Source: Bacteroidales bacterium (GTDB lineage Bacteria; Bacteroidota; Bacteroidia; Bacteroidales; UBA932). Taken from it: 61,534 bases of DNA. Of this stretch, positions 1,874 through 18,117 are shown piece after piece. Each line of letters begins with the position of its first letter. Position 1 is the stretch's first letter. The notes under the pieces were generated by a model, which did not search any database, was not told the DNA's origin, and saw only the letters and a list, made by a program, of their open reading frames with translations. The stretch is taken from assembly GCA_017558775.1 (NCBI GenBank), contig JAFYTP010000003.1, forward strand, positions 1-61,534. The letters are read 5' to 3'. Position numbers and translations under genes: made by a program.

Positions 1874-3330
1874 AAAGATACATCCCACTCCTGGTAATTC
1901 TGATTCTGGTAGCTTGCCAGCCAAAAGCTCGAAACGCTGCGCCTGCCGGTGTGCGTCCCGAGATCTATCCCGATTATGTCGGAGTGACGATTCCTACTGG
2001 GATTGCGCCGCTGGATTTTACGGTGAAGGGGGCGGAGGCGGTCGATGTGCAGGTGAGCGCGGCGGACGGGAAGGTGCTGCGTTCCCGCGGGCGGGCGTGT
2101 ACCCGGTTCCCCGCCAGGCGGTGGGCGGATTTGCTGGAAAGGAGCGTCGGGGATTCATTGACAGTAACCGTTTCCGGCTTGTTTGACGGAAAGTGGAAGG
2201 CTTTCGAGCCATTCGGCATCTTTGTGTCGCCGGACCCCATCGACTATGGCCTCAACTATCGGTTGCTGGAACCCGGATATGAAGTGTACAGCCTGATGGG
2301 GATTTACGAGCGCGAGCTGGGGTCCTTCAAGCAAAGGGCTTTGCTGGAGAATACGCAGTTTGACGGGTGCGTGAACTGCCATTCCTACAATCGCAACGAT
2401 CCATCGGCCTTCTCCTTGCACATTCGCGGTCAGCACGGAGCCACGCTCCTTCAGCGGGACGGCGAACTGAAAGCCTTCAACACCAAAACCGATTCCACGC
2501 TTGGATTCTGCGTCTACCCCTACTGGCATCCCTCCGGGAATTATATCGCCTATTCGACTAACAGCACCCGCCAGGGCTTCCATGTGCAGGAGGACAAATT
2601 GATCGAAGTTTATGACCTCGCCTCGGATCTCCAGGTCTATGATGTAGTTCATAACCAAATCATTACCGCTCCGCAAATCAAGCAGGAGGGGGTGTGGGAG
2701 AGTTTCCCCGCTTTCTCTCCGGACGGGAAGACGCTTTATTTCACGGCGGCCGCTCAGGTGGAGATTCCCGGCGGATTGACGGAGTCGCATTACAATCTGA
2801 TGAAGGTCAGCTTCGAGCCGGAAACCGGCACCATCGGCAAAAATGTCGAGTTAGTCATCGACGCGGCCTCCCTCTCCAAGAGCATCGCCTTCCCGAAGCC
2901 GTCCTTTGACGGCCGGTTCCTGATGTACACCCTATGCGACTACGGGACTTTCCCCATCTGGCACCATGAGTCCGACCTCTGGGTGCTGGACCTGGAAACC
3001 GGCGAAACCCGGCCGGTTGACGAGGTGAACAGCCCCGATACGGACAGCTATCACGACTGGAGTTCCAACTCCCGCTGGTTCGTCTTCTCAAGCCGTCGGG
3101 ACGACGGGCTTTTCACCCGCCTGTATGTCGCCCATTTCGATGAAAACGGCGTAGCCGGGAAGCCGTTCATGCTCCCCCAGCGGGATCCCCAAAACTATTA
3201 CGAGGGGCTGTTCCGTTCTTACAATGTCCCGGAATTCGTAACGGGGCCAGTCTCCCTGGACAAAAGAAGCGCCCAGAAGATGATCAATTCTCCTGAGCGC
3301 ATTCCGTTCGGCTTCCGCTGGTCGGATTAA
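1870..3330 (+). CDS. PD40/TolB-like beta-propeller lipoprotein with CxxCH heme motif (copy A)
   Basis: 486 residues with a lipoprotein signal (lipobox LVAC, Cys16). A conserved N-terminal block (YPDYVGVTIPTGIAPLDF) is followed by a single c-type heme-binding motif CVNCH at residues 167-171 and then RGQHGATLLQ. PD40/WD40-like repeats follow (FPAFSPDGKTLYF near 275, SFDGRFLMY near 345, SSNSRWFVFSSRR near 398), and the C-terminal block is LPQRDPQNYYEGLFRSYNVP. The architecture implies an exported heme-bearing beta-propeller; no axial Met ligand is obvious. It is coupled by ATGA to the DUF6057 gene. Its TAA overlaps the TAA of the convergent GH5 gene in a TTAA palindrome. Despite the propeller resemblance, it is not the Tol-Pal TolB. 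Confidence 0.8.
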   Translation: MKRYIPLLVILILVACQPKARNAAPAGVRPEIYPDYVGVTIPTGIAPLDFTVKGAEAVDVQVSAADGKVLRSRGRACTRFPARRWADLLERSVGDSLTVTVSGLFDGKWKAFEPFGIFVSPDPIDYGLNYRLLEPGYEVYSLMGIYERELGSFKQRALLENTQFDGCVNCHSYNRNDPSAFSLHIRGQHGATLLQRDGELKAFNTKTDSTLGFCVYPYWHPSGNYIAYSTNSTRQGFHVQEDKLIEVYDLASDLQVYDVVHNQIITAPQIKQEGVWESFPAFSPDGKTLYFTAAAQVEIPGGLTESHYNLMKVSFEPETGTIGKNVELVIDAASLSKSIAFPKPSFDGRFLMYTLCDYGTFPIWHHESDLWVLDLETGETRPVDEVNSPDTDSYHDWSSNSRWFVFSSRRDDGLFTRLYVAHFDENGVAGKPFMLPQRDPQNYYEGLFRSYNVPEFVTGPVSLDKRSAQKMINSPERIPFGFRWSD

Positions 3331-5120
3331 GGCGCTGAATTATAGACGCTTTCCAGCGTATAGGCCGGATCCGTCGTGGTCACGGCCTTGACCATCAGGC
3401 CGATCAGTTCCGTCGCCTTGTCATCCACGACCTTGCCGCTTCCGTGGTCGATGTAGCCGTGCTTCTCAGGGCCGACGCCCTTGCCGCCATTATCCCACAC
3501 GTACATCGGCAGAAGCCGGTCCGCGGCCGCCTTGCAGAAATACTCCATGTAATACTTCTGGTAAGGGAAATCGGCCTCCGCATGACGGGAGCAGCCCATC
3601 TCGCCCAGATACACGGGAATGCCCTTGTCCAGATAGGCGGCCTTCAGATTGTCGAAAACGGCGACGACGTCCGCCTCGTTATTGCCGCTGATGCGGAGGC
3701 TCGGATCCGCCGTATGACCCCATTGGCGGATCTTGAACTCGTTGGGATGCTTTTCGTCGAGGCTGCTGAGGGTGTAGTCATAAGGATCGTAATCGTGGAC
3801 CGCCACAATCAGGCGGTTCGCGGTGGTATGGTCCTCCGGCAGGACGAGGCCGGCGATCGTGAAACCGGGATTGGCGGCATAGCCCGGGACGCCCAGCCAG
3901 CGGGTGGCGTTGTTTCCACCGGTGGAGCGGACGGCGTCCACGAAGGTCTGGTTCCACTCGTTCAACACCTTGTACTGCGCCTGCGGATCAGCCCGGAAGG
4001 CCTGGCTCCAGCCCCAGCCGCCGTCCTGGATCTCATTGAGAGACTCGAAGACCAGCCATTCTCCCTTGTCGGCGAAACGCTGGGCAATCTGCGTCCAGAG
4101 GCAGAATATCTCGTCCTTCACCTTTTCGTTCTGGGCGGTATTGTTATAGGCGTTCTTGATGTCCTGCCACTCGGTTTCGTCGTGATGGGAGTTCACGATG
4201 GCGACCAGGCCGGCTTTCTCCGCATAGCCCACGATTTCCGCCACGCGGTCCAGCCATTGGTCCTCGATCCGATAGGAAGGAGCGGGGCCGATATGGCCTT
4301 CCCAGGTCACGCAGATGCGGACAGCCTTGAATCCGGCCGCCTTGACGCCGTTCATCGTGGCCTGCGTGCATTTGGGATTGCCCCAAATTGTTTCGTTGGC
4401 GATATGGTTGCTGATCGCGTCCATCTGGTTGCCCAGATTCCAACCGGGCGCCATCGCCTGGAACACGATTTCCGGCGTAATGGCCGTCGTCGTAGCCGTG
4501 GTGACGCTGCCAGCCTCCTCCGAGACGCTTACCGTCACTGTTTCATTGCCACAAGTGATCGTGATAGTACCGGTCCGCGGCGTGAAGCTCCGGTTGGCGC
4601 TGGCCAGAATGGACACAACCGTTTCATGCTTGTCGGATATCGTCCCAGCCTCCACCCCGCACCAAACAGCGTCCGTGGTGATAGAAGGCTGGACCGCGGA
4701 AGTGACCTTGAAGGTCGCCTCGCCGCCGAACCGGTCGAAGGAGAATTTGTTCTGATCCACGGACAGTTTAATCGGCGGGACATTCTGAGTCACGGGAATC
4801 ATCAGGCTCATCTTGTTCCCGATGACGCGGATGGAGGTCTTGCGCTCCTCCGTTCCGGTATAAGCCTGGGCTTTCACCGACAACTTGAAGGTGTTGTTCG
4901 ACAAGGCCCCTTCTTTCAAGGTAATCCAGGAATCGACAGCCGACACCTCGGGCTTGACGTCGGTAGTGATGGACAGTTCCTGGGTGCCACCCGCCGCCTC
5001 GAAGACCAGCGACGAAGGTTCGGACGAGAGCCGCACGGGGTCGGGTTCGGGCTTATTCCCGCCGCAAGCGGTCAGACATAGGGCGGCCAGGGCCGATAAG
5101 AGGATATTCCAGGATTTCAT
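3327..5120 (-). CDS. BACON-BACON-GH5 endoglucanase lipoprotein
   Basis: 597 residues. Lipoprotein signal with lipobox LTAC (Cys19), so probably anchored in the outer membrane. Two BACON-type beta-sandwich modules lie at ~29-116 and ~117-205, followed by a Thr-rich linker and a glycoside hydrolase family 5 domain at ~215-590. The GH5 signatures are WNLGN near 227, the proton donor in ESLNEIQDG (Glu363) and the nucleophile in YLGEMG (Glu507). Subfamily 4-like endo-beta-1,4-glucanase activity (cellulose, xyloglucan or mixed-linkage glucan) is likely from family knowledge, but the substrate is not proven. It is the last gene of the susCD run, 13 bases after the PD40 gene, and supplies the only glycanase seen here. 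Confidence 0.9.
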   Translation of the reverse strand: MKSWNILLSALAALCLTACGGNKPEPDPVRLSSEPSSLVFEAAGGTQELSITTDVKPEVSAVDSWITLKEGALSNNTFKLSVKAQAYTGTEERKTSIRVIGNKMSLMIPVTQNVPPIKLSVDQNKFSFDRFGGEATFKVTSAVQPSITTDAVWCGVEAGTISDKHETVVSILASANRSFTPRTGTITITCGNETVTVSVSEEAGSVTTATTTAITPEIVFQAMAPGWNLGNQMDAISNHIANETIWGNPKCTQATMNGVKAAGFKAVRICVTWEGHIGPAPSYRIEDQWLDRVAEIVGYAEKAGLVAIVNSHHDETEWQDIKNAYNNTAQNEKVKDEIFCLWTQIAQRFADKGEWLVFESLNEIQDGGWGWSQAFRADPQAQYKVLNEWNQTFVDAVRSTGGNNATRWLGVPGYAANPGFTIAGLVLPEDHTTANRLIVAVHDYDPYDYTLSSLDEKHPNEFKIRQWGHTADPSLRISGNNEADVVAVFDNLKAAYLDKGIPVYLGEMGCSRHAEADFPYQKYYMEYFCKAAADRLLPMYVWDNGGKGVGPEKHGYIDHGSGKVVDDKATELIGLMVKAVTTTDPAYTLESVYNSAP

Positions 5121-5133
5121 AATACTTTGATTG

Positions 5134-6603
5134 TCAATCGAAAACTTCCGCCGGAACCTCCCGCCAGACCCGGCCGATTTCCGCGGCGTCGAAGCCGACG
5201 GAGGCGTTGCCGAGGTCCGGAACGTTGAAGGACCGGGTCATGGAATCGTAGAAATGGGGATCCCGCTGCGGGAGCAGGAAAGGTTTGGTGACGGTCCCAT
5301 CTTCCGAGACGTGGCTGAACCAGGGCTTTCCGAACATCCCGTCTCCCCGCTTGGAGGCGAAGACGAACCACTTGGAGTCGGAAGCCCAGCTGTGGTAGGT
5401 GTCGGACTTGTCCGCATTGACCTCCTCCAGCGTAAGGACTTCGCCGGTGCGGAGGTCCAGCATCCGGAGGTCGCACTCCCGGTGGTTGATGGGGAAAGTG
5501 CCGTAGTCTGCCACGGTGAACAGCAGCCAGCGGCCGTCGGGCGACGCCTTCGGGTGGCAGACCGAAAGGCCGCGCTCCGTGGCGCTCCAGATGGTATCGA
5601 CCTGATTCACAAGCGTTCCCGTCTCGGCGTCGAAAGGAATACGGACCAGGGAATAGCCGATGTGCTCGATCTCCGCGGGCAGGGATTTCGCCGGGGCGGT
5701 ACAGTAAAAGACATACTGCCCGTCGGCGGAGAAAACGGGGAAGGTCTCGAACGTGTCCAACCGAGCGAAGTCCGGGAAAGTCATCATCCGGTTCCCGTCG
5801 AAATCCGCCACGCACAGGTCGGAGGCCGTATCGAAAACCTCCATGCGGCGGTTCCCATAGGAATGCATCGCAGGAATAATGATATTGGTCGAAAAGACGC
5901 CGAAACGGCCTTTCGGATGAATCTCGCCGTATACGGTGGGAGAAATCATCGACGAATCCCGCAGGGTGAGCTTGCGCAAGGTCCCGCCGCGGTTGAGGAT
6001 GGCGCCGCCGCCCTCGCCCCGAAGATAGAACATCGACAAATCTCCCCTGCCCTGCGCGTGGATGTGGCAGTTCATGCACTTGTTCTTCGTGTTCCGCCAG
6101 TCGGAAATGGGCTTGGCGTCGAAGCTATCCAAGTTCCGTTCGATGATCTCCAGGTCGTCCCAGACCTCGAATCCGGGCTCGATGAGGCGGTAGGTCAGGT
6201 AAGGGTCGATGGCATCGGCACTTACATGGACGGTCCAGCGGAAGGACATCGGCCCTGACGGAGTCTTGTACTCGGAAAGGACCTCCACATCCGCACCTGT
6301 CGACAGTATCCGGGCCCAGGCTTTCTTTTTCCAAACCACGTCCCGGCCCCGGACCTTCACGGTGGTTCCGGCCGATGTGAAGGTGGTCACGAACCGGGAC
6401 GCTTCCGGATCCGTGTAGTAGAAGTTGAGCGGGGCGATGTTGCAGGGAACGGTGACGTCGCGGTAGTCCGGGAAAACGGGCGCCGTGCGGTCGGTTCCCT
6501 CCCCAACCGGACGCAAATCAGGCGTCCGCCCGCAAGCAAGGAGCAGGAGGAGCGCTGCCAACACCGTCCAGGCACGGTCAATGATTCTCGTTCCGCACAG
6601 CAT
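5134..6603 (-). CDS. PD40/TolB-like beta-propeller lipoprotein with CxxCH heme motif (copy B)
   Basis: 489 residues. Lipobox LLAC (Cys24). It carries the same blocks as copies A and C: FPDYRDVTVPCNIAPLNF near 44-61, TYRLIEPGFEVWDDLEII near 137, the heme motif CMNCH at 176-180, YLRGEGGGAIL, the repeat FPVFSADGQYVFYC, and the terminal LPQRDPHFYDSMTRSFNVP. The start overlaps the end of the short DUF6057 gene by 26 bases, so translation is coupled, but the junction differs from the ATGA of the other two pairs. Expected location is periplasmic or on an outer-membrane leaflet; maturation would need a cytochrome c heme-ligation system, which is not in this window. Confidence 0.78.
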   Translation of the reverse strand: MLCGTRIIDRAWTVLAALLLLLACGRTPDLRPVGEGTDRTAPVFPDYRDVTVPCNIAPLNFYYTDPEASRFVTTFTSAGTTVKVRGRDVVWKKKAWARILSTGADVEVLSEYKTPSGPMSFRWTVHVSADAIDPYLTYRLIEPGFEVWDDLEIIERNLDSFDAKPISDWRNTKNKCMNCHIHAQGRGDLSMFYLRGEGGGAILNRGGTLRKLTLRDSSMISPTVYGEIHPKGRFGVFSTNIIIPAMHSYGNRRMEVFDTASDLCVADFDGNRMMTFPDFARLDTFETFPVFSADGQYVFYCTAPAKSLPAEIEHIGYSLVRIPFDAETGTLVNQVDTIWSATERGLSVCHPKASPDGRWLLFTVADYGTFPINHRECDLRMLDLRTGEVLTLEEVNADKSDTYHSWASDSKWFVFASKRGDGMFGKPWFSHVSEDGTVTKPFLLPQRDPHFYDSMTRSFNVPDLGNASVGFDAAEIGRVWREVPAEVFD

Positions 6604-7636
6604 AGTAGAAGTAATACCAATAGGTTTTTCCGAATTCCTCCGTCAGGTTCTTGCCCGACCCGTTATCCCGCTTGTAAATGGTCACAAACTGATTGAAGCG
6701 GGAAAGCGTTTCCTGCGAAATCTGGTAATGGGCGAAATTGTCGGGCGCCATTCCACCCTTTGCGGCCAGGAAGATGAGCATCGCCTCCTCGTACAGCTTC
6801 GAATGTGTCAGGGACGGAACATAATCCGCCACGAACGCGTCCAAGTCCTTGGTCAGCAGGTCATAGCACAGCAGGTAATCCAGGGCCATCTTGTTGGACG
6901 GATTGGAGTTGAGCAGGACCCGGAGGGTATACTGCACCTGGTCCATGCCGTGGACCAGGTCGAAGCGCGGCAGCTTGGCGCGTTTCTCGTCGATGAGCAT
7001 CCGGTAGCCCGGATTCCAGGCATCGGGAAGCCTTACTTGGGCCCATTTCCGGTCGCGCGGAGAATTGAGGAGGATACGTAGATACTTGGACGCCGCCTCG
7101 TAATCGCCCTTGACCAGATTCGTTTCCGCCAAACGGCGCAGGTAGCGAGATCCGGTGTGCGCCGGGGAGAACAGCATCCCCAGCATCGCGTCGCGCTCCG
7201 CCAGGGACATATCCCCCAGGGCGAACCAGACGTCGCTGGCGCAGCCGATCACGAAAGGAGAGGAATGCTCTCCGACCGGGAGGAACAGGCCGCGCTCAAA
7301 AGGCTGGTAATAGTCCAGCAGCTTGTCGGCCAGCTGGCCGTACATCGCATTGGAAAGGTTATAATAGTAGGTGCCGACCTCCGACCGCCTGTCCTCTTTC
7401 GCCAGGGCGGCGACCGCCTGCCAGTTTTCCAACGAAGCCTCCACGGCCATACCCATCGCCGTCTCGGACACCTCGTTCGGATGCCCCCAGACTTTCCGGG
7501 CTTCCCGCAGGGAAATCCCGTTCTGGGCGGCGTATTTCCGGAAATACGGATATCGGGTCAGGAACAAGACCTGGCTCGCCCCGGCGGCCAGCGCCGCCAC
7601 GGCAAGGACGATCCAGAGTATGCGCCTGACTTTCAT
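6578..7636 (-). CDS. Short DUF6057-type protein with one membrane helix (copy B)
   Basis: 352 residues. One N-terminal hydrophobic helix (ILWIVLAVAALAAGAS) acts as signal anchor; the remainder aligns with the soluble TPR-like C-terminal half of the two full-length DUF6057 proteins. Shared segments include RRLAETNLVKGDYEAASKYL, NKMALDYLLCYDLLTKDLD and the final GKTYWYYFYY. The multi-helix membrane domain is absent. It is preceded by the DUF4369 gene with a single base between them and followed by PD40 copy B with a 26-base overlap. Either this is a natural single-anchor variant or the membrane domain was lost after duplication; the intact frame and tight coupling argue it is functional. Confidence 0.7.
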   Translation of the reverse strand: MKVRRILWIVLAVAALAAGASQVLFLTRYPYFRKYAAQNGISLREARKVWGHPNEVSETAMGMAVEASLENWQAVAALAKEDRRSEVGTYYYNLSNAMYGQLADKLLDYYQPFERGLFLPVGEHSSPFVIGCASDVWFALGDMSLAERDAMLGMLFSPAHTGSRYLRRLAETNLVKGDYEAASKYLRILLNSPRDRKWAQVRLPDAWNPGYRMLIDEKRAKLPRFDLVHGMDQVQYTLRVLLNSNPSNKMALDYLLCYDLLTKDLDAFVADYVPSLTHSKLYEEAMLIFLAAKGGMAPDNFAHYQISQETLSRFNQFVTIYKRDNGSGKNLTEEFGKTYWYYFYYAVRNENH

Positions 7637-7637
7637 C

Positions 7638-8177
7638 CTACTCCTTGGGAAGGGGGTACATGTTCAAAAGGAACTCTCCCAGGATGCTTTCCTCACCCAC
7701 GGCGAGAGCCATCTTCTGGGTCCGGTCCCGGTACGCGGCGCGGGCCGAATCGGCCTGCTCCTTGAGGCCGGCGCTCAATAGCAACGCCCGTTCCTTGTTG
7801 CTGGCCTGGGTCAGGTCCTTCCAGACCTGGAGACTGTCGTTCAGGGGTGTACCGCCGCCGGAGCTTTCCGGGCCGATGGTCACATAAATATCGCCGGGTT
7901 CCGTCACCACCAGCAGATTCTGGCCCTTGTCGCGATGGTACCGGTCCAGGCGGATGGTGCACATCCAGTGCTTGTCCCCCTTGAAGAAGAACTCGTGGTT
8001 GCGGATGACGACCGAATCGACATTCTCCGGTTCCTCATGACCGAACGGCACCAGGAAGACCTGGATGCCCTCCAGATCGTTGGAGGTGACGCGGCCATGG
8101 ATCCGGTACCGGTCCGGATGGCTGCAGGAAAACAGGAGGACGCCCAGGAGGGCCGTCAGGACAAATGCTTTTTTCAT
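7638..8177 (-). CDS. Stand-alone DUF4369-like lipoprotein
   Basis: 179 residues starting at MKKAFVL. Lipobox LFSC (Cys19 region). The body (YRIHGRVTSNDLEGIQVFLVP, then VVIRNHEFFFKG and LVVTEPGDIYVTIG) resembles the DUF4369 domain that normally sits in front of a TlpA/AhpC thioredoxin domain in Bacteroidota, but here the protein ends after a helical tail and has no thioredoxin part. The start ATG overlaps the PD40 copy C stop (ATGA at 8174-8177), which fixes the start; the next gene begins one base after its stop. It is probably a periplasm-facing accessory subunit of the same complex. Confidence 0.65.
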   Translation of the reverse strand: MKKAFVLTALLGVLLFSCSHPDRYRIHGRVTSNDLEGIQVFLVPFGHEEPENVDSVVIRNHEFFFKGDKHWMCTIRLDRYHRDKGQNLLVVTEPGDIYVTIGPESSGGGTPLNDSLQVWKDLTQASNKERALLLSAGLKEQADSARAAYRDRTQKMALAVGEESILGEFLLNMYPLPKE

Positions 8178-9622
8178 TCTTTCACCGTAGCTTGGATGCG
8201 CTCGTCGGAGAACACTTCCCGGTAGGTGCCGCCGGTGCGGAACCGCACCTTGGCCTTGGTGAAATCGGGGACGTTGAACGAATAGAGCGTATCGTGATAA
8301 TATTTTCTGGGATTCTTCTGCGGGAGCACGAAAGGTTTCGTGCAATGGCCGTTCTCATCGATCGACGAGAAGTACACCTGCACATACAGCCCGTCCGCGC
8401 GGCGGCTGGAGAACAGGAACCAGCGGCTGTCGGAGCTCCAGTTGTGGAAGCTCTCCGAGAAGGGGCTGTTCACCTCGTCCAGAGGCCTGGATTCGCCGGT
8501 TTCCACATCCATCAGCCACAGGTCCGCTTCCTTATGGTCGATGGGGAACACGCTGAAATCGTGCTTGTTATACATCAGCCAGCGTCCGTCATAGGAAGGG
8601 CGCGGGAAACTGACGCTCTTTCCCTCCGCGCTGGCGGGAATCAACGTCTTGACATCGCCGAGCGCGCCCGTTTCCGGGTCGAAGCTCGCGTACATCAGGT
8701 CATATTGGACCTTCTCCACATTCTCCGGGACATCGTATGCTTTCGCCCGGCAGAAATACAGGGTCCTGCCGTCCGGAGAGAAAGCGGGAGAGGTCTCCAG
8801 ACTGTCTTTCGTCGTAAACCGGGGATCCACGATCAGGGAATGGTCCTCCGTGTCCATCACCACCAGGTCCGACGCCAGGTCGAACACCTCGATGGTGCGC
8901 TGGTCCCCCGTCCAGAAGGACTGCCGGACCGGATTGATCGACCCGGCCATCCATCGGCCTTCCGGATGCCAATAGCAGTAAGCGACATTGCCGATGGTGC
9001 TGTCCGTCTTGGTCGTCACCCACTCGCGCGCGCCATCATGCTGGAAATAGGTGGCACCGTGCTTGCCGCGGAGGTGGAACAGGAACTGCGAGGGATCCGT
9101 GGCATTGGCCGTATGGCAGCCCATGCACTGGCCCGGAGCCAGGGTGCTTTCGATAATGGGTTCCTCGCGGAAACTGTGGATATCACGCTGATAGATGCCG
9201 ATCCGGCTGTACGTCGTGTAGCCGGGCGCCATCTTCCGGTAAGTGATACCGTAATCCGTGAGCGGCGCGTCGCTCACATACATGATGAAATCGCGCCATT
9301 GCGTCCATCGTCCGCCCTTGCGGCCCAGGACGGTGAAATGAAGCGTTCCGCCTGCATTCTGCTCCGTGAGCTTATGCCAGGCGCGGACCGGGAAGGAAGC
9401 CCACCGGCCCTTGGTCTTGATTTCCCCGCCCTTGCTGCCGGTCACACGGACGAACACGCGGTCGTATTCCTCCGGCAGGTTGAAGTTCATCGGAGCGATG
9501 TCGACGGGGATGGTAACACCGATATAATCGGGATAAATGTCAGGAAGTTCCTCGAGAAAGTGCGTGTCCCGGGAACAGGCGGCGGCCAACAAGGATGCGG
9601 CGATCAGGATCCACTTTCTCAT
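8174..9622 (-). CDS. PD40/TolB-like beta-propeller lipoprotein with CxxCH heme motif (copy C)
   Basis: 482 residues from MRKWILIAA. An upstream in-frame extension exists, but the lipoprotein signal (LAAAC, Cys16) and the ATGA overlap with the preceding DUF6057 stop identify 9622 as the start. It has the shared IYPDYIGVTIPVDIAPMNF block, TYRKMAPGYTTYSRIGIYQ, heme motif CMGCH at 166-170, HLRGKHGATYFQHDG, PD40 repeats (SPAFSPDGRTLYFCRA and others) and the end block LPQKNPRKYYHDTLYSFNVP. Closest in layout to copy A. Coupled at both ends (ATGA with DUF6057 copy C and with the DUF4369 gene). Confidence 0.8.
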   Translation of the reverse strand: MRKWILIAASLLAAACSRDTHFLEELPDIYPDYIGVTIPVDIAPMNFNLPEEYDRVFVRVTGSKGGEIKTKGRWASFPVRAWHKLTEQNAGGTLHFTVLGRKGGRWTQWRDFIMYVSDAPLTDYGITYRKMAPGYTTYSRIGIYQRDIHSFREEPIIESTLAPGQCMGCHTANATDPSQFLFHLRGKHGATYFQHDGAREWVTTKTDSTIGNVAYCYWHPEGRWMAGSINPVRQSFWTGDQRTIEVFDLASDLVVMDTEDHSLIVDPRFTTKDSLETSPAFSPDGRTLYFCRAKAYDVPENVEKVQYDLMYASFDPETGALGDVKTLIPASAEGKSVSFPRPSYDGRWLMYNKHDFSVFPIDHKEADLWLMDVETGESRPLDEVNSPFSESFHNWSSDSRWFLFSSRRADGLYVQVYFSSIDENGHCTKPFVLPQKNPRKYYHDTLYSFNVPDFTKAKVRFRTGGTYREVFSDERIQATVKE

Positions 9623-11082
9623 TGCTCGCCCTCCCATTGCTTGAGCCGCTGCCAGGCTTTGTAATACTCGGCCGCCATGAAGTTGTTCTTGTTCTGGTTG
9701 TACAGGATGGCCATCATAAGGTCCAGCCCACCATAGGCAGTGATGAAATCGTCCTTGAAACGGACCTGGCGGATGTAGGCGTACACCGGATCCGCCGCCA
9801 CGCGGCTCTCGTCCTGGATCAACACTTTCTGCTCCCGGGCCCATTTACGATAGAAGAGGCTGTGTTCCAGGATATCCAGGTATTTCACGGCCCGGTCGTA
9901 CCAGCCGTTCACGATGTTGCACTGAGCGACGCGGGACATGAAGCGCCCGCTCTTCCGGCCGTTCTGGATGGATTCCTGCAGGTCGAAGTTGTACTGGAGG
10001 GTGATATTGGGCATGCCCATCATCCACAGCAGTTCGGCGGAAGTGATGTCGGAGAGATTATCCCGGATGCTGGGGAGGACCAACCCGCCCGTTCCACACT
10101 GGTAGAACTGCGTCATCCGCGCATCCAGCTGCCGCTCCATAAATAAGCAGAAATTGACGGAACAGGCGCTGACGGGATTGTGCGGCTGGTACTTCTCCGC
10201 CCGCTTGATGACATCCTGATAGCGTTCGTTCCGGATGAGCCAGTCATAGGCCAGAACCTCATAAGTGTCCTTGTCATAAGAAAGGGAAACGCCGATCCAG
10301 GTGCCGATGGCCAGCACCGCCGCCAGGGCGATGTCCACGATCCGCGGATATCGCATCCGGATGTCCAGACCGCAGATGAAGATGCACAGGAGTGTCACCA
10401 CCGGAATAATGACCTGCAAGGCCGGCAGGGATTCGATCAGCCGATAGTAGTTAAGCCCGAAAGCCGCGTCACGCGGAGGATACTGGGCTGCCAGGAGCCG
10501 GTACTGCGCAAAGAACACCGGCACCAGATAAAGAAGCATCACCAGGTCCGCCCATTTTCTCCCGACGATGCAGGAGAACAGGACGGGCACCACGATGACC
10601 GGCCCGACGAGCCACCAACCCAGCGGGATAAGCCAGAGCCGATGCCACCCCGCCTTGGCGAAGAGCGGGCACAGGGCCACGGCGATGATCAGGGCGACAG
10701 GATAGCTCAGGAGCACCTCCACGTCCCCCAGATGGACGAGCATCAGCAGGGACGGGAGGAAACTCAAGGCATAGAGCCCCCGATGTCCTTCCTTACCCGC
10801 GTACTTCGCGGCCCTCCAGACGAAGAGCTGCAGCAACACGGCCAGCAAGGCATGGACCAGGGCGCCGGCCCAGCGGACATAGAACAGTTGCACGAGGAAT
10901 TCCGACAACCAGTCGGCGAAGCCCCCCGGCAGCACCAGGCGCCCGCCGAGATACCCCCACGTGAAGAGGAACAGCTGGTTCTGTTCCTGATAATTGAGCG
11001 CCTGCGGATACAGCCACATCCAGAAAGAGAACACGGCCGCGCCCAGCAGGGCTGTCAAAACAATTCTGTAGCTTCTGTCCAT
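9619..11082 (-). CDS. DUF6057 family multi-pass membrane protein (copy C)
   Basis: 487 residues from MDRSYRIVLTALLG, chosen because upstream codons are not hydrophobic and run into the terminator-like hairpin. The N-terminal half has several membrane helices with the family motif NYQEQNQLFLFTWGYLGG and PGGFADWLSEFLVQLFY. The C-terminal half is TPR-like (SRVAQCNIVNGWYDRAVKYL, KNNFMAAEYYKAWQRLKQW) and lacks the aromatic YWxYY tail of copies A and B. Separated from the surface lipoprotein gene by 68 bases and coupled to PD40 copy C by ATGA. Function unknown. Confidence 0.78.
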   Translation of the reverse strand: MDRSYRIVLTALLGAAVFSFWMWLYPQALNYQEQNQLFLFTWGYLGGRLVLPGGFADWLSEFLVQLFYVRWAGALVHALLAVLLQLFVWRAAKYAGKEGHRGLYALSFLPSLLMLVHLGDVEVLLSYPVALIIAVALCPLFAKAGWHRLWLIPLGWWLVGPVIVVPVLFSCIVGRKWADLVMLLYLVPVFFAQYRLLAAQYPPRDAAFGLNYYRLIESLPALQVIIPVVTLLCIFICGLDIRMRYPRIVDIALAAVLAIGTWIGVSLSYDKDTYEVLAYDWLIRNERYQDVIKRAEKYQPHNPVSACSVNFCLFMERQLDARMTQFYQCGTGGLVLPSIRDNLSDITSAELLWMMGMPNITLQYNFDLQESIQNGRKSGRFMSRVAQCNIVNGWYDRAVKYLDILEHSLFYRKWAREQKVLIQDESRVAADPVYAYIRQVRFKDDFITAYGGLDLMMAILYNQNKNNFMAAEYYKAWQRLKQWEGEQ

Positions 11083-11105
11083 CCGGAACCGGTTTTTAGA
11101 AAGAA

Positions 11106-11129
11106 GGCAGCCGCTTTCCGGCGGCTGCC
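11106..11129 (-). terminator. Hairpin between the surface lipoprotein and DUF6057 genes
   Basis: A 9-bp perfect stem, GGCAGCCGC against GCGGCTGCC with a six-base loop, is followed on the minus strand by TTCTTTCT. It looks like a weak rho-independent terminator or attenuator that would set the first three genes (susC, susD, surface lipoprotein) at a higher level than the downstream six. No new TAnnTTTG promoter is visible between it and 11082. Confidence 0.55.
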
Positions 11130-11150
11130 CTCTCCGGGAATAGCGATTGA

Positions 11151-12647
11151 TTACTTCTTGGGCTGGAATCTCCACCAGGTGACTTCACCCCAACCCCAGA
11201 CATCCTCGCCGTTGCGGCAGATGAGGGTCATCATATTACCGTCCATATAGATGATCTCGTACTCGGTGGCCTTCTGGCCGCCGGCGTTGACGATGAACGG
11301 GAACAGGATACCGGACTCGGCGGGATCGTTGACCAGGTCACCCATCTTGTATCCCTCGCTCGCCTCCGTGGTCCAGTCGAAGTTCTCGACGGAGTAGGTG
11401 GAGGAGGTAATCTTGTCGCCGCCGGCATCGTAGGAGGTAACCACACCGTTCACGCTGTCGAACACCATATAGGCGTCCGAGCTGCCGTAACCGTAGGCGA
11501 CACCGCCGCTATGGGCGATCTGTTCGGTCTCCAGGTCTTCCGGGAGACAGCCCCACCAGTAGCCGGGGATGGCACCGGAAGCGACGTCGGCCTGGCCGCC
11601 TACGCCGATGTAACCGGCATTGCCCCAAGTAGCGCCGTCGATCGGCATCCAGGTCCAGGCACGCTCGCCGCTGCCGGCGAGGGCGGCATCCGGATCGGAA
11701 GCGTTCTTGAAGCGCCACCAGGTGGCCTCTCCCCAACCCCATTCTTCATTTTTGCCCTTGTAGATCAGCGACATCTGGTTCGGGTCGATGTAAATGACTT
11801 CGAACTCGTTGACGCGCTGTCCGCCGGTGTTGATGGAGAACGGCATCAGGATGGGAGCGTCCGTGGTGGTGAGGGTTCCGTAGAGGTAGTTCTCACCACT
11901 GGGATCGTAGTTCGTCATCGTATAGGAGCCCTTGGCGATGAGGGTGCCGTCTTCCTTGTAGGAGATGCACTCACCGTCCTCGTTGAAGATCATGTAGGCA
12001 TTGCTGCTGCCGTAACCGTACTCGGTACCGCCGGTATGATCAATCTGCTTGGTCTCCAGATCTTCCGGAGGACAGCCCCACCAGAAACCAGGGATGGCGC
12101 CGGAGGCGACATCGGCCTGGCCGGCCACGCCGATGTAACCGCAGTTACCCCAGCAGGCGCCGTCGATGGTGTACCACTTCCAGGCCTTGACACCGGACTC
12201 GCCGGTGAGTACCTTCACCTCGGGGGCGAGGTCGGCCGGGACATAGACATTGACGCTGCTGTCGAAGGAAACGACGGAGGCGTCCTGGTTGATGGTGGCG
12301 ACGGAGAATGCCTGGTTCGGGTCGGCACCACGCCGGGGCGTGATGTTGAACACGCCGGCGGCGCCGGTGTTCAGGACATTCTTGGAGCCGTCAGCCTTAT
12401 AATTGTACACCTGGACGGTCCGGGCAGGGCTCGTATGGTACTTGATATAGTTACCATCGGCCTGAGGAATCGTGCAGGCGGCATCGGCAAACTGGCCGTC
12501 GATCACGAAGGAACTCTGCAGGTCGTTCGCGGCGATGGGCGCGTCGGTATCCGGACCTTCGATGAGCACAGGCTCACAGGAGACCAGCAGGGCACCCGCC
12601 AGGGCGGCAATTGCGAAGTAGAATATCTTTTTCATGTTTCGTTTCAT
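11151..12647 (-). CDS. Surface lipoprotein with duplicated Trp-rich domain (SGBP-like position)
   Basis: 498 residues from 12647; a second ATG at 12635 (MKKIFYFAIAALAG) is an equally good start and gives a more typical signal peptide. Lipobox LVSC. An N-terminal domain (~30-150) with beta-rich, SusE/PKD-like character is followed by two tandem copies of a ~160-residue module (~156-314 and ~331-495). Each copy has WGNxGYIGVxGQADVASGAI, WWGCxPEDLET and the terminal WGWGExTWWRF. The position after susD is that of a surface glycan-binding protein, and the Trp/Gly-rich modules are compatible with carbohydrate stacking, but I do not recognise a named family. Confidence 0.7.
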   Translation of the reverse strand: MKRNMKKIFYFAIAALAGALLVSCEPVLIEGPDTDAPIAANDLQSSFVIDGQFADAACTIPQADGNYIKYHTSPARTVQVYNYKADGSKNVLNTGAAGVFNITPRRGADPNQAFSVATINQDASVVSFDSSVNVYVPADLAPEVKVLTGESGVKAWKWYTIDGACWGNCGYIGVAGQADVASGAIPGFWWGCPPEDLETKQIDHTGGTEYGYGSSNAYMIFNEDGECISYKEDGTLIAKGSYTMTNYDPSGENYLYGTLTTTDAPILMPFSINTGGQRVNEFEVIYIDPNQMSLIYKGKNEEWGWGEATWWRFKNASDPDAALAGSGERAWTWMPIDGATWGNAGYIGVGGQADVASGAIPGYWWGCLPEDLETEQIAHSGGVAYGYGSSDAYMVFDSVNGVVTSYDAGGDKITSSTYSVENFDWTTEASEGYKMGDLVNDPAESGILFPFIVNAGGQKATEYEIIYMDGNMMTLICRNGEDVWGWGEVTWWRFQPKK

Positions 12648-12665: not shown

Positions 12666-14474
12666 CTACTGCCAACCCGAGAAGTCAAACTGGGAGCCCC
12701 AGCCTTCATTCTGGGTGAACTTGTACTCTTCACCGGCTCCGGCGGACAGGGAAATCTGACCGCTCGGGAGCGGGACAAAGCCCTTGGTGGCCTTATAGCG
12801 CTCACCGTATCCGCCATTGAACTTGGAAGCGTTGTTCTTGTCTTCCTCGCCCAGGTTCCAGATCTTCACGCCTTCCTGCTTGTTCAGGGCGGTGACGGCG
12901 TAGCTCTCACCGTAGCGGCGCAGGTCGTTGAAGCGGACGCCTTCGAAGTTCAGCTCCCAACGGCGCTCATTGCGGATGTTCTCCTCATTGAGCGGTCTGC
13001 TGGGCAGGCCGGCGCGGGCGCGGACCTTGTCGAAGGAAGCCTGGTTGCCGTTGATCTCGGCATCCATCAGCAGCACTTCGGCGAAGCGGATCAGGACCAT
13101 GTCGTTCACGCAGTTCAGCTGGTAGTCGTCCTCAGCTCCGGAAGACCAGACAAGGCCCGGGAACATCACGTTGGTGAAGGACTTCATGTACTTGCCATTC
13201 TCCTCGCTGTAAGCCATGACCGGCATGTTCTTGGTCTGATAGTAACCGGTTTCCTGGATGAAGGAGTCGCCGCCGTATTCATATTTACCGGAGAACTTAT
13301 CCACCGGCAGGACGGAAGCGTCCAGACGGGGATCGTTCGGCTCGATCGCCTTCCAGTCGGAGACCAGCGCGGGAGAGACCGGGCACATACCCCAACCCTG
13401 GCCGAAAGGCATGCACTCGCCGTTGGAATAGCTCTGCTCGCGGACGCCCATGAACAGGCAGGTCTGGTTCGCATAGCCGATCGTAGTGCTCCAGGAAGGC
13501 TGGGTGTTGAACTTGATGATGAACATCGCCTCGGGGTTGCGGGCGCCGTCATCCTCGACCCACTTGAAAGGCTTTCCATCGATGGTCTTGCCTTCGGAAT
13601 AGGGATTCTTAGGATCGCTGATGGAGCAGCGGTTGGTGTAAGCCCAGAGGTTGTGATAGTCGTCGACCAGTTTATAACCGGAATTCTTCACGCAGTCGTC
13701 GATGTACTTGCCCACATCGGCCTTGCCGAGCTTGGTGCCTTCGGCGATGTTGACGCCGATGGCATCGTTCGAATAAGCCGGGAGGGTGACTTCGGAGAGA
13801 TTGTAGAAGCCGGTGGCGAACAGCCAGGCGCGGCCCAGGAGGGCCTCGGCGGCGTACTTGTCCACATGGCCGTCACCGATGGCCTGCACGGCCGGCATAA
13901 TGTCAGCCGCGATCTTGCAGTCCTCGATGATCTGGCCCCAGAGGGCCTCACCGCTGATCTGCGGCAGGGTGGGATCGGCCGTGGACGTCACAGGGCAAGG
14001 GATGTTGCCGAACATGGAGGCCAGTTCGTAGTAGTACCAGGCGCGGAGGAAATAAGCCTCGCCCATGTACTGGTTGAGCTTGTCCGCCACGCCGCAGTTA
14101 GGCAGCGCCTCGATGGCGGCGTTCGCACGCGCGATACCTTTATAACGCTCGACATAGAAACTGTCGTACATATCGGCACCGACGTTCATCAGGAGGTCTT
14201 CCGCCTGGAAGACAGGGTCGTTCTGACCGCCGCCGCCCAGGGCGTCGTCGGACGCGGCGACGGACCACAGGAAGTGATTCAAGTGGACATCGCCGCCGAT
14301 GGCGGAATTCAGGTTGTTATAGATACCGGCGAGCATCTGCTCGGCATCGGTAGCGTTCACCGGGAAGTTACTGCTGTCTTTGGACCAGTAGTTGGTCGTG
14401 TCGAGGAAAGACTCACAGGACGCAAACGAGAAAGCGAGGGCGGCGAGAGCCGCAAGTTTCATCAATTTTTTCAT
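12666..14474 (-). CDS. susD-like: SusD/RagB family nutrient-binding outer-membrane lipoprotein
   Basis: 602 residues from MKKLMKLAALAALAF; nine further in-frame codons upstream are ignored because the signal peptide begins here and the gap to susC is then a normal 16 bases. Lipobox FASC (Cys20). The SusD_RagB fold is indicated by the N-terminal ESFLDTTNYW, the TPR-type helices (YKGIARANAAIEALP, GEAYFLRAWYYYELASMFGNIP) and the C-terminal RNERRWELNFEGVRFNDLRRYG typical of the family. It caps the SusC barrel as a surface lid that captures oligosaccharide. Confidence 0.95.
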   Translation of the reverse strand: MKKLMKLAALAALAFSFASCESFLDTTNYWSKDSSNFPVNATDAEQMLAGIYNNLNSAIGGDVHLNHFLWSVAASDDALGGGGQNDPVFQAEDLLMNVGADMYDSFYVERYKGIARANAAIEALPNCGVADKLNQYMGEAYFLRAWYYYELASMFGNIPCPVTSTADPTLPQISGEALWGQIIEDCKIAADIMPAVQAIGDGHVDKYAAEALLGRAWLFATGFYNLSEVTLPAYSNDAIGVNIAEGTKLGKADVGKYIDDCVKNSGYKLVDDYHNLWAYTNRCSISDPKNPYSEGKTIDGKPFKWVEDDGARNPEAMFIIKFNTQPSWSTTIGYANQTCLFMGVREQSYSNGECMPFGQGWGMCPVSPALVSDWKAIEPNDPRLDASVLPVDKFSGKYEYGGDSFIQETGYYQTKNMPVMAYSEENGKYMKSFTNVMFPGLVWSSGAEDDYQLNCVNDMVLIRFAEVLLMDAEINGNQASFDKVRARAGLPSRPLNEENIRNERRWELNFEGVRFNDLRRYGESYAVTALNKQEGVKIWNLGEEDKNNASKFNGGYGERYKATKGFVPLPSGQISLSAGAGEEYKFTQNEGWGSQFDFSGWQ

Positions 14475-14490: not shown

Positions 14491-17400
14491 TTATTTGACA
14501 ATACACACAGCTACGCGGTTGGATTCGGGGCTGCGGGAAGCATCCCGGTCGCCACCGACGGCGGAGCGGATGATACGGCTGGCGGCGATGCCGGCCTTCT
14601 TGAGCATCTCGACCACCACGTCAGCGCGCTGCTCGGAGAGATCCTTGTTGATCTCGTCGGTACCGGTGCCGCTGTCGGCATAGCCGGTGACGGTGATCGT
14701 GGCGTCAGGATTGTCCTTCAGGATCTGCGCGATCTGGCCCAGCTTGAAGGCCTCGTCGGGACGGATCTCGGACTTGCCGATCACGAAGAACACGTCGTCG
14801 CTGTAAGGACCGGTGAAGTTGGAGCCGGCAGGAACCTTGACTTCCTTGACGACCTCCACGGGCACTTCCTTCTCGACGATCTTTTCGACGATCTTCTCGA
14901 CGATGCGCTCAGGCACATAGGCATTCGCCACATGGGCGGTCTCGGCATGCTTGCGGGTGCCGCCGAAGGAGAGGTTCAGGCCCACGAGGAGACCCTTGGC
15001 GTGCGGATAGTAACCCAGGTCGATACCCTTGGTCCAGCTGCTGAAGCCGGAGGAGGAACCCACCTCAGGGTCGAGGCCCTTGTACTTGGTGAAGACCCAA
15101 GGGTTCTGGGCCTGCACATACAGGTGGCACTGGCCGAACGGGGCGTTCTTCCACAGACGCTTGAAGTCGTAACCGAGGGTGACGGTCTGGATCCGGAAGA
15201 AGTCGGCATCCTCGATGAAGATGTCGGAGTTGTTCATATAGTTGTAGTTGGTACCGGCGACCAGACGGGGAAGGCGGTTGGAGGAGCCTTCGCCGTGCCA
15301 GTAGTCGTACACCTCGGTGGTGTAGTTGTTCCACTGGCTGTCGGTGTAACGGCGGTAGGCGCGGAACACCTGCTGGCCGAACATGCCGTAACCGCTCACG
15401 CCCAGGTCGAAGCCCTTGTAATAGACGGAGAAGTTGAGACCCACGTTGAAATCCGGGTTCGGATCGCCGGTCATCGTCTTATCGGCGTCGTTGATGACAC
15501 CGTCCTTGTTCTGGTCGACGAACTTGAGGTCACCGGGAACGATGTTGTCCACGATGGTGCCCAGGCCCTTGGCTTTCCACTCATCGATTTCAGCCTGATT
15601 CTGGAACACGCCGTCGGTCTCATAGGTCCAGAAGTAGCCGATCGGGAAGCCGACCTGCGCGCGGTACATCTCAGCGATGCCCTGGACGACGGAACCGGCA
15701 CCGTGGATGATGCCCTCATCGTTGGCGATACGGGTGACGCGGTTCTTGTTGTAAGCGCCGTTCACGCCGATGTTATAGGAGAAGTCCTTGCCGATGGCGT
15801 CATTCCAGTTCAGGGCGAGCTCGACACCGGAGTTGCGCACGTCACCACCGTTCTTATACGGGGCGTTGGCGCCGAAGTGACCCATGATCGGGGCGTTCAC
15901 CAGCCAGTTCTTGGTATCCTTCTGGTACCAGTCGAACGCGACACTCAGCTTGTTGGCGAACAGGCGGGCGTCGAAGCCCAGGTCCAGCTGCTGGGAGGTT
16001 TCCCAGGTGATGTCGGGGTTCGCGAGCTTGTCGGCATAGGCGCCGGTACCGGAATTCTGGGCGGTAGGGCCGGTATAGAAGGAGTAACCGCCATCGGCAG
16101 CACCCACGGAAATGGTGGAGAGGTACTGGAAATTGTCGATGTTGCAGTTACCGTTCTGGCCCCAGCTGCCGCGCAGCTTCAGGAAGTTCACCACGGTAGG
16201 ATTCCACCAGTCTTCGTTGGAAACCACCCAACCGGCGGAAACGGACGGGAAGTAGCCCCAGCGATGACCTCTCGCGAAGTTGGAGGATCCATCAGCGCGG
16301 AAAATCAGGGACAGCAGGTATTTCTCGGCGTAGTCGTAATTGACACGGCCGAAGAAGGAGACCAGGCCGCTGTCACCCCAGGTGGAACCGGAGATATCGC
16401 TGAGGGAAGGAGTGCCGTTGGTGTTGCCCACATAGGCGTACTTCCACTGGTTCGGCCAGAGGACGCCGCTGTTGCCGGCGCCGACGGACTCACCGAAGCC
16501 ACTGTGCTCGAGGGTGTTACCGACGAGGGCGTCGAAGTGGTGGTTCTTGCCGATGTTGAAGAGGTAGTTGACCGTATTTTCCCAGGACCAGCTCCAGCCG
16601 GCCCAGGCGCTCTGGCTGACGCTGTCGACGCCGCTGTAGGACGTGTCGGTCAGGCTGTAGATGAGACCGTACTGACGATAGGTGCCCGAGCTCATGTTGT
16701 AATTGAACTGGCTCTTCCAGATGAGGCCCTTGATGGGCTGGACCCGGAGGTTGGCGGACATGTTCAGGCCGTAGTCGTGGTTCTCGTTGTTGCCGCGGGA
16801 GGAATAGACCATCTCGGCGATCGGGTTGCTGATGGTGGAAACCAGGTTCCAGACACCGCTGTTCTTCAAGTAGTCATACTCCGTAAAGGAACCGTCCTCC
16901 AGATAAGCGGGGACCAGCGGGTTCGCGGAGAGCATGTTGAAGATATCGTTCCAGTAATGGTTGCCGGTGCCGATACCGCTCTTCTTGGACTGGATGAAAG
17001 TCAGGTTTTCACCGACGGAGATGATGTCCAGGCCATCCTTGCGCCAGAGCACGTGGTCCGAATTCAGACGGGCGGTGACGCGGGAGTAGTTGGAAGCGAC
17101 CGGCTTGCCGAAGATACCTTCCTGGTTGGCGTAGCTGACACCCATCGAGAACTTGGACAGGTCGGAACCGCCGACGATGTTCACGGCGTGGTTCTGGTTG
17201 GGAGCGTTCTCGTTGCGGATCAGGTCCAGCCAGTTGGTACCCACGAAGGAACCGTCCTTGATGCTGTTGTACAGCGCGGGGCTCAGGATGTTGGCCCAGT
17301 CGAGCTTCTCCTTGCCCATATTGAACTGCACCTGGTCCTGGATGTCCATATACTGCTGGGCGTTCAGGAATTCAGGCATCCGCAGCACATTCTGGACACC

Positions 17401-18117
17401 GTAGAAACCGTCATAGGAAACGGTGATGCTCTCGCCCTTGCCCTGCTTGGTGGTCACGAGGATGACACCGTTCGCACCACGGGCACCGTAAATGGCGCAG
17501 GAGGCGGCGTCCTTCAGGACGTCGATGCTCTCGATATCGGAGGCGTTCAGGGAATTGATGTTTCCGCCGGCGACACCGTCGATGACATAGAGAGGCTCAT
17601 AGGAGCCGATGGTACCCATACCGCGGATGTTCACATTGTAGCCTTCGCCCGGCTGACCGGACTTGGACATGATGCTCACACCAGGAGTGGAGGACTGCAT
17701 GGCGCCCAGGGCGTTGGTGGAATTGAGCTTCGCGAGGTCATCGCCCTTGACCTGGACGGTTGAACCGGTCACCAGTTTCTTCTTCTGGGTACCGTAACCG
17801 ACCACGACGACTTCGTCGAGAAGTTCCTGGTCTTCCTCCAACATCACCGAGAACTGGGTCTGATTCCCCACCTCGATGACCTGGGTCCTGTAACCGATGG
17901 ACGAAATCTCGATGCTCGCGCCCGGTTGGACGTTGAGCATGAAATGACCGTCCAGGTCGGTGATGGCACCGTTCTGGGTGCCGCTTTCAATGACGCTCGC
18001 GCCCACGACGGGTCCGATGGCGTCGGTGACCGTTCCGGAGATCCGGACCGTCTGCGCCGTCGCGGCCATGCCGATAAGCAGGAGCAGCATTGAGGCAAAA
18101 AGTCTTAAACTTTTCAT
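14491..18117 (-). CDS. susC-like: SusC/RagA TonB-dependent transporter fused to an OmpA peptidoglycan-binding domain
   Basis: 1208 residues. After a signal peptide come a carboxypeptidase-like regulatory domain (~24-95), the TonB-box/plug region with LDEVVVVGYGTQKKK and the GxxGSYEPLYVIDG plug segment, and then the 22-strand barrel, which would normally end at YYPHAKGLLVGLNLSF near 1050. Instead the protein continues with a charged linker (VEKIVEKIVEKEVPVEVV) and an OmpA_C-like domain at ~1098-1208 (VFFVIGKSEIRPDE, TVTGYADSG, the peptidoglycan-contacting NKDLSEQRADVV, SNRVAVCIVK). The frame is continuous with no slip. It imports oligosaccharides with SusD, and the tail should bind peptidoglycan. 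A 188-nt leader is predicted. Confidence 0.93.
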   Translation of the reverse strand: MKSLRLFASMLLLLIGMAATAQTVRISGTVTDAIGPVVGASVIESGTQNGAITDLDGHFMLNVQPGASIEISSIGYRTQVIEVGNQTQFSVMLEEDQELLDEVVVVGYGTQKKKLVTGSTVQVKGDDLAKLNSTNALGAMQSSTPGVSIMSKSGQPGEGYNVNIRGMGTIGSYEPLYVIDGVAGGNINSLNASDIESIDVLKDAASCAIYGARGANGVILVTTKQGKGESITVSYDGFYGVQNVLRMPEFLNAQQYMDIQDQVQFNMGKEKLDWANILSPALYNSIKDGSFVGTNWLDLIRNENAPNQNHAVNIVGGSDLSKFSMGVSYANQEGIFGKPVASNYSRVTARLNSDHVLWRKDGLDIISVGENLTFIQSKKSGIGTGNHYWNDIFNMLSANPLVPAYLEDGSFTEYDYLKNSGVWNLVSTISNPIAEMVYSSRGNNENHDYGLNMSANLRVQPIKGLIWKSQFNYNMSSGTYRQYGLIYSLTDTSYSGVDSVSQSAWAGWSWSWENTVNYLFNIGKNHHFDALVGNTLEHSGFGESVGAGNSGVLWPNQWKYAYVGNTNGTPSLSDISGSTWGDSGLVSFFGRVNYDYAEKYLLSLIFRADGSSNFARGHRWGYFPSVSAGWVVSNEDWWNPTVVNFLKLRGSWGQNGNCNIDNFQYLSTISVGAADGGYSFYTGPTAQNSGTGAYADKLANPDITWETSQQLDLGFDARLFANKLSVAFDWYQKDTKNWLVNAPIMGHFGANAPYKNGGDVRNSGVELALNWNDAIGKDFSYNIGVNGAYNKNRVTRIANDEGIIHGAGSVVQGIAEMYRAQVGFPIGYFWTYETDGVFQNQAEIDEWKAKGLGTIVDNIVPGDLKFVDQNKDGVINDADKTMTGDPNPDFNVGLNFSVYYKGFDLGVSGYGMFGQQVFRAYRRYTDSQWNNYTTEVYDYWHGEGSSNRLPRLVAGTNYNYMNNSDIFIEDADFFRIQTVTLGYDFKRLWKNAPFGQCHLYVQAQNPWVFTKYKGLDPEVGSSSGFSSWTKGIDLGYYPHAKGLLVGLNLSFGGTRKHAETAHVANAYVPERIVEKIVEKIVEKEVPVEVVKEVKVPAGSNFTGPYSDDVFFVIGKSEIRPDEAFKLGQIAQILKDNPDATITVTGYADSGTGTDEINKDLSEQRADVVVEMLKKAGIAASRIIRSAVGGDRDASRSPESNRVAVCIVK

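Follow-up and report, generated by a model that had tools for sequence, protein, structure and literature searches.

A SusC-type transporter with a C-terminal OmpA-type domain in a Bacteroidales bacterium, and the recurrence of its tail on unrelated importers

The fusion gene and its locus

Bacteroidota of the gut and rumen import glycans through SusC transporters. The window analyzed here, i.e. the whole 61,534-nucleotide stretch at positions 1 to 61,534 of contig JAFYTP010000003.1 (assembly GCA_017558775.1, a Bacteroidales bacterium), encodes one that is fused to an OmpA-type domain. The fusion occupies a single frame of 1208 aa (14491..18117, minus strand, as are all features below unless stated), with an ATG start and no internal stops, as an earlier note on this DNA had read it. 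A putative signal peptide (residues 1-21, 18055..18117), read from the sequence alone, is followed by an N-terminal extension matching the Pfam family CarbopepD_reg_2 (PF13715, residues 26-105, 17803..18042), a Plug domain (PF07715, residues 114-218, 17464..17778), and the SusC/RagA signature of NCBIfam (TIGR04057, residues 194-224, 17446..17538, 66.5 bits). The full SusC/RagA transporter model TIGR04056 spans residues 25-1051 (14965..18045) and is matched from position 2 to 981 of its 981 positions with 896.8 bits, against a cut-off of 368.25. The barrel ends at GLLVGLNLSF, which the earlier note had placed near residue 1050 and which closes at residue 1051. The protein then continues for 157 residues beyond the last barrel strand, first through a linker (residues 1052-1106, 14800..14964) that contains the Val/Glu/Lys-rich stretch VEKIVEKIVEKEVPVEVVKEVKVP, and then into an OmpA-type peptidoglycan-binding domain found by Pfam on the same protein (PF00691, residues 1110-1197, 14527..14790, or 14524-14790 in the genome search; E 2.9e-15, 56.8 bits against a curated cut-off of 27.2). 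Because ending at the last strand is usual for SusC proteins rather than defining, the protein is still a SusC despite its extra C terminus; conversely, its membrane part is a SusC and not a small OmpA-type barrel, and it is therefore not classed as an OmpA porin. The stop codon is followed, 16 nt downstream, by the ATG of a gene for a SusD lipoprotein (12666..14474; SusD-like_3, PF14322, and SusD_RagB, PF07980, in Pfam).

The similarity of the tail to OmpA-type domains is not a chance one. Scored against a profile of 34 standalone OmpA domains, it reached 116.9 bits, compared with 13.2 for the best of 2000 residue-shuffles, and the solved chain closest to it in sequence is 9uu2_A, a "Major outer membrane protein" (E 1.8e-17). 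Pfam found both Plug and OmpA in all 28 of the collected fusions that were scanned. Seven residues (D1148, N1157, R1164, T1151, G1152, G1145, and L1160) are invariant in 75/75 tails. In alignments with Pal (1oap) and YiaD, D1148 (14674..14676) and R1164 (14626..14628) fall on the Asp and Arg of those proteins, both of which are kept in the window tail, so that the Asp/Arg region pointed out by the earlier note is indeed present; we take these two residues to be ligand contacts of the diaminopimelate site, and N1157 (14647..14649) is the conserved Asn between them. The motif LSX2RAX2VX3L, given for OmpA_C in the portion of PMC5053529 drawn on here, appears in the translation as LSEQRADVVVEML. 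Judging from 11 chosen close pairs, in which dN/dS was 0.045-0.252 for the tails and 0.087-0.241 for the barrels, the tail is under purifying selection. The linker, measurable in 63 of 75 fusions, is 49-77 aa long with a median of 57. In 70 relatives, 99% of its repeat part is made up of Val, Glu, Lys, Ile, and Pro, a share that is partly built in, since the repeat was delimited by a pattern of these very residues. Its hydrophobic power is maximal near 85 degrees per residue (~4.2 residues), which corresponds to neither a beta structure nor a plain amphipathic helix. A consensus scan found no promoter or terminator between barrel and tail, and GC3 is 0.833 in the barrel and 0.815 in the tail.

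Downstream of the SusD gene lies a gene for a 498-aa putative lipoprotein (11151..12647), the N terminus of which reads as a signal ending in Cys; it had no match in Pfam or NCBIfam and, judged from its position, is perhaps the third gene of the SusCD operon. A protein with BACON and GH5 (cellulase family) domains is encoded ~9 kb downstream on the strand of the fusion (3327..5120, by domain search) and is a possible enzyme of the same locus. The window also contains three pairs of a DUF6057 protein and a PD40-propeller protein, at 128-3330 (plus strand), 5134-7636 (minus), and 8174-11175 (minus), with one CxxCH motif of the heme-binding type in each PD40-propeller protein. DUF6057 also occurs in 6 of 79 neighbor proteins of fused SusCs elsewhere, in a survey that scanned 79 of 166 flanking frames (and 35 downstream frames for SusD).

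Recurrence in the genome and among its relatives

The genome of origin (G000; 2.63 Mb, 88% complete, 128 contigs) gave nine PF00691 matches, of which four lie in frames of 1191-1249 aa that are all SusC-OmpA fusions, each followed by a SusD gene (for fusion L010, by position and sequence). Five standalone OmpA-domain proteins are also encoded, three of which (391, 395, and 430 aa) read as barrel-type. The tail is present on 4 of 35 SusC-signature matches, 34 of which score above the cut-off. Our set of non-fused SusC-signature genes in G000 comprises 30 genes, a further signature match in a 152-aa frame (C86) being left out; 28 of them stop with the final strand of the barrel (26 with a terminal Phe, L116 with Leu, and L123 with Tyr), and the remaining two are L117, cut by a contig end, and L118, which ends in a linker stub. 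The enzymes encoded near the four fusions differ, i.e. GH5 in the window, GH16 at the second, GH88 and a pectinesterase at the third, and GH2, a fucosidase, and a GH18-like protein at the fourth, and therefore the tail does not track one substrate.

Beyond this genome, a census of the genus was run with an alignment of the four G000 tails (query A1) at E<=1e-40, and the tail was found in 27/260 genomes (12/102 of the more complete ones), in up to six copies per genome. These amount to 63 tails, 59 in frames of at least 1081 aa and four in frames of 319-683 aa, one of which matches, by frame length, L027, a SusC that runs off the end of its contig. In a separate sample of the genus, 7/61 genomes carry the tail in a frame of more than 1100 aa, including G012, the tails of which fall short of the E<=1e-40 threshold. 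At the level of the family, 33/249 genomes match at E<=1e-22, four with frames of at least 1191 aa and the other 29 only with frames of 108-466 aa; at the level of the order, 4/393 match at E<=1e-24 and long frames occur only in the window's own genome, which is also the sole match among 296 genomes of the phylum. Counts from a scan of named genomes are lower bounds, as they cover the best 80 of 86 relatives: 66 loci lie in SusC frames, some of them contig-cut, and another 14 in SusC-less frames of 356-424 aa. These fusions, at least 66 in number, stem from 41 assemblies, a set that overlaps with the 27 genomes of the genus census. Going by their titles, 18 of the 41 assemblies come from a ruminant host or stomach compartment, 17 have RUG or RUI names, which presumably denote rumen, and 6 have neither. 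Among the 14 standalone loci, the same criterion counts 7 as ruminant. Sampling is uncorrected in these counts, and the host pattern may reflect sampling bias. The whole window frame, and not its tail alone, recurs in other assemblies (L018-L022, 80-83% identical in alignment A3 of 28 rows). The fusion is thus recurrent, and a misassembly was rejected, barrel and tail sharing one frame in 41 other assemblies and in 27/260 genomes of the genus.

The tail also occurs on shorter receptors of the SusC family (L053, L064, and L075); the match of L053 to TIGR04056 begins at model position 100, and this receptor seems to be without the N-terminal extension, and L064 and L075 look alike. Carriage of the tail by plasmids or phages was rejected: no match covered 80% of the tail, and the partial matches, in six plasmid and two phage records, were all below 60% identity. 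We also considered whether Prevotella-type SusC tails represent an order-wide fusion. The corresponding query (A2) matched 42/393 genomes of the order at E<=1e-18, with frames of 374-443 aa among the matches listed; with no long frame among these, the idea was rejected.

Movement of the tail among importers

Chief among the new findings is the modularity of the tail, which is found on unrelated importers. Already among the four fusions of G000 the barrels are 22-38% identical and the tails 65-73%. In a FastTree phylogeny of the barrels (69 fused and 29 non-fused, with long-branch warnings), the fused state needs at least 16 changes, 12 of them forced by starred branches; this tree omits 11 of 80 fused rows (L017, L027, L028, L056, and L063 as partial, L127 and L131-L134 as duplicates, and L129) and one of 30 non-fused rows, the contig-cut L117. 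A 25-row subset analyzed under a mixture model gave nine changes, eight forced, and a single fused clade was rejected with a p-AU of 1.9e-42, a value that overstates the case as the rows were picked after the barrel tree was known. Both analyses reject one origin of the fused SusCs by descent, and the fused barrels are, on this phylogenetic evidence, polyphyletic.

The OmpA domains tell a simpler story. In a tree of 77 fused and 34 standalone rows, three label changes suffice: 74 fused tails form a single clade, and the others are a Prevotella/Prevotellaceae pair (L087 and L088) and L146, which combines a SusC match of 835.8 bits with an OmpA domain above the Pfam cut-off; the tree rests on 102 columns for 111 rows and has long rows, the L146 branch being the longest. 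The linkers also fall into kinds, being Val/Glu/Lys-rich in most fusions, coil-like in L087, L088, and L146, and alanine-rich in G012. Standalone OmpA proteins have the same kinds of linker, and therefore linker and domain were probably taken together. Collectively, these data suggest that OmpA proteins donated the tail, probably on two or three separate occasions. A query made of the coil-like linker and OmpA domain of L171 (A5) matched 123/251 genomes of the family of G690 at E<=1e-20; among the matches listed, the only frame of more than 1000 aa was in G690, the source of the query, and the others were of 129-668 aa, mostly near 390 aa, frame lengths that suggest that the captured tail came from standalone OmpA porins. 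As for L171 itself, it and L172, from two Prevotella-type genomes, are frames of ~1290 aa with a coil-like linker and then an OmpA domain at the end; in their C-terminal halves only OmpA families were matched, and the membrane part is perhaps another class of TonB-dependent receptor.

Tails and barrels were also compared in pairs. Among the 70 of 75 tails with a barrel part of more than 800 aa, 39 have their closest counterpart on a related barrel (at least 50% identity) and 31 on a more distant one, and tails that are 88-93% identical are found on barrels that are 26-32% identical (L046/L039, L135/L136, and L087/L088). L046 and L039 belong to one assembly, with barrels 26% identical and tail DNA 92% identical. 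A pair that differs in the presence of the tail is provided by L118 (G000, C111) and L128 (G003), which are the same SusC (1067/1143 residues identical, 93.4%), with 591/653 identical positions in the DNA 50-700 nt past the stop. L128 has the tail, whereas L118 stops within the linker (..GGSQKKATPAHNAD) and is followed by SusD. As the next relative, L119, is also without the tail, the tree alone leaves the direction undecided between gain and loss; loss is favored in L118 because the linker stub remains, and L118 is a candidate for recent tail loss. Further fused and unfused relatives pair at 73-76% identity (L120/L025, L119/L037, and L124/L064).

For example, exchange may be traced in L040/L045, where identity in 100-nt steps is 92-100% over most of the barrel (dS 0.09), the stretch of linker and OmpA domain drops to 79-90% (OmpA dS 0.49), and the identity then returns to 97-100%. 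A clean swap of the tail alone is not borne out, as the two genes also diverge in their first 400 nt (80-91%) and in a 300-nt stretch past the stop (74-87%), and the tail is therefore one of three apparent recombination patches. L049/L060 gave the same contrast in dS (0.11 vs 0.45), with a downstream flank that has diverged as well. Together, these comparisons suggest that unrelated importers have gained the tail, exchanged it among themselves, and lost it.

Possible roles of the tail and comparison with known systems

An outer-membrane barrel has its two termini on the periplasmic side, which would place the domain beside the wall, as in OmpA; together with the conserved Asp and Arg, this favors a wall-tethered importer. 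In the mechanism that we propose, a SusC importer driven by TonB would carry, at the C terminus of its barrel, a 55-residue Val/Glu/Lys linker leading into a periplasmic OmpA-type domain that most likely binds the meso-diaminopimelate of peptidoglycan, so that the SusCD complex would be tethered non-covalently to the wall during TonB-driven import. Linker and domain would act as one module, captured, moved among unrelated barrels by recombination, and sometimes lost. Import by TonB of a glycan (or of a peptide) is predicted from the family and the neighbors, and the periplasmic topology, the peptidoglycan binding, the tethering, and its benefit we infer from sequence. We regard a wall-tethered glycan importer with this modular history as the best explanation and as probable. 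The earlier note had proposed a glycan importer anchored to the wall: the architecture, the SusD partner, and the residues behind that proposal stand, and anchoring stays the best reading of them.

Several observations weigh against this proposal. Only 27/260 genomes of the genus (12/102 of the more complete ones) carry the tail, which is therefore dispensable, and tail-less SusCs of G000 reach 52% identity to the window barrel. Two tail-bearing SusC frames reach just 633 aa (L028) and 292 aa (L063) though not at a contig end, and therefore some copies may be broken; the two may be broken genes or assembly errors. Core tails were no more alike within a genome than between genomes (median identity 69.0 vs 68.6%, 42 vs 1651 pairs, P 0.22, nine divergent rows set aside), which leaves general concerted evolution of the tails within a genome unsupported. 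Finally, in the part of a fluorescence recovery after photobleaching study of E. coli OmpA drawn on here (PMC3637615), mobility was not raised by removing the peptidoglycan-binding domain. By analogy, plain immobilization as the benefit is weakened, and with it the suggestion of the earlier note that the tail fixes the SusCD complex in place.

As to what the tail would be good for, mechanical retention of complexes that grip polysaccharide fits the hosts and neighbors best and is the most likely benefit, although our preference for it is tentative. SusCD complexes clamped on long or insoluble polysaccharide by their lid and surface proteins would pass pull and shear to the wall, and fewer of them would be lost in vesicles. 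The 18 ruminant titles and 17 RUG/RUI names among the 41 fusion assemblies agree with this, as do the polysaccharide-degrading enzymes that adjoin the fusions of G000; on the other hand, the host pattern comes from the best 80 of 86 relatives and perhaps from biased sampling, and the tail is on just 4 of the 35 SusC-signature matches of G000. A broader form of the argument, which is possible but rather doubtful, describes a wall-anchor cassette that spreads by recombination. Bacteroidota, most of them from the stomachs of ruminants, would turn selected nutrient importers into wall-tethered machines by joining an OmpA linker and domain to whichever SusC they are using. Two or three lineages would have acquired the cassette independently and with different linkers, and the polysaccharide load would pass to peptidoglycan.

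That abundant SusCs serve as extra tethers between outer membrane and wall where Tol-Pal is missing, with import incidental, we consider unlikely. The phylum is reported to be without tol-pal in the sections of PMC12204202 drawn on here, but 233/260 genomes of the genus had no match at E<=1e-40, and the five standalone OmpA-domain proteins of G000 indicate that tethers are not missing. The idea of the earlier note that the tail resists the pull of TonB by holding the barrel against it, here extended to a tail that keeps the barrel near wall-bound ExbD/TonB, appears quite unlikely. The fusion does have the N-terminal extension and plug typical of TonB-coupled transporters, and the interaction of ExbD with peptidoglycan is described as transient in Ton-driven uptake in the available part of PMC10771500. 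However, every SusC faces TonB, yet 28/30 non-fused genes of G000 end at the last barrel strand. Moreover, it is general knowledge that TonB pulls the plug inside a membrane-embedded barrel, and the present data give no sign of barrels being dragged. A tail that is a functionless by-product of recombination is very improbable: the patchy distribution, the presence or absence of the tail on related barrels, and L118, which shows the tail to be dispensable, would suit it, whereas the dN/dS of 0.045-0.252 in 11 pairs, the seven residues invariant in 75/75 tails, and the probable two or three separate captures speak against it. An assembly or annotation artefact joining two genes, conceivable in a single assembly of 128 contigs, deserves practically no weight given one shared frame in 41 other assemblies, 59/63 genus tails in frames of at least 1081 aa, and near-equal GC3 (0.833 and 0.815).

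The SusC-OmpA fusion is a new SusC variant that is real, recurrent, and selected. To our knowledge, wall attachment is not a property usually ascribed to SusCs; if the tail does bind peptidoglycan, some importers would be load-bearing parts of the envelope, which would bear on outer membrane-wall cohesion in bacteria reported to be without tol-pal and on which proteins leave in vesicles. If the reading as a wall-anchor cassette holds, nutrient import and envelope mechanics would be directly coupled. Natural controls exist in L118 and L128, without and with the tail, and in highly similar tails on barrels that are only 20-30% identical, and the effect of a wall anchor is therefore directly testable.

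With OmpA-type porins, the window protein shares the order of barrel, linker, and OmpA domain, whereas the barrel of OmpA is, as is generally known, small, 8-stranded, and plug-less, and the membrane part here is a SusC; the standalone OmpA-domain protein of G000 closest by tail profile, L013, is 43% identical over the domain. With SusC/RagA TonB-dependent transporters, of which the levan and dextran SusCD utilisomes are examples in the part of PMC7618045 drawn on here, it has in common the N-terminal extension, the plug, the SusC profile and signature, and the adjoining SusD; in contrast to ordinary SusCs, which stop at the barrel end, it continues for 157 residues. TonB-dependent transporters are sorted by N-terminal architecture in PMC6434023, as far as the excerpt goes, and full-text searches of an open-access library, without most subscription papers and all bioRxiv preprints, brought up no paper that is, going by its listing, about a SusC with an OmpA domain. 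With Pal and other OmpA-domain structures (PDB 1oap, 2k1s, and 3td3, the nearest being 9uu2), the tail shares the domain family and the Asp/Arg pair; it has, from the alignment, one additional residue between Asp and Asn, and it sits on a transporter barrel, whereas Pal is lipid-anchored. PorE/PG1058 of the type IX secretion system is, like the fusion, a Bacteroidota envelope protein with carboxypeptidase-regulatory-like and OmpA_C domains; it is described, in the parts of PMC5053529 and PMC12204202 drawn on here, as a lipoprotein of TPR, propeller, carboxypeptidase-like, and OmpA_C domains, without barrel or plug, and is linked to secretion and not to glycan import.

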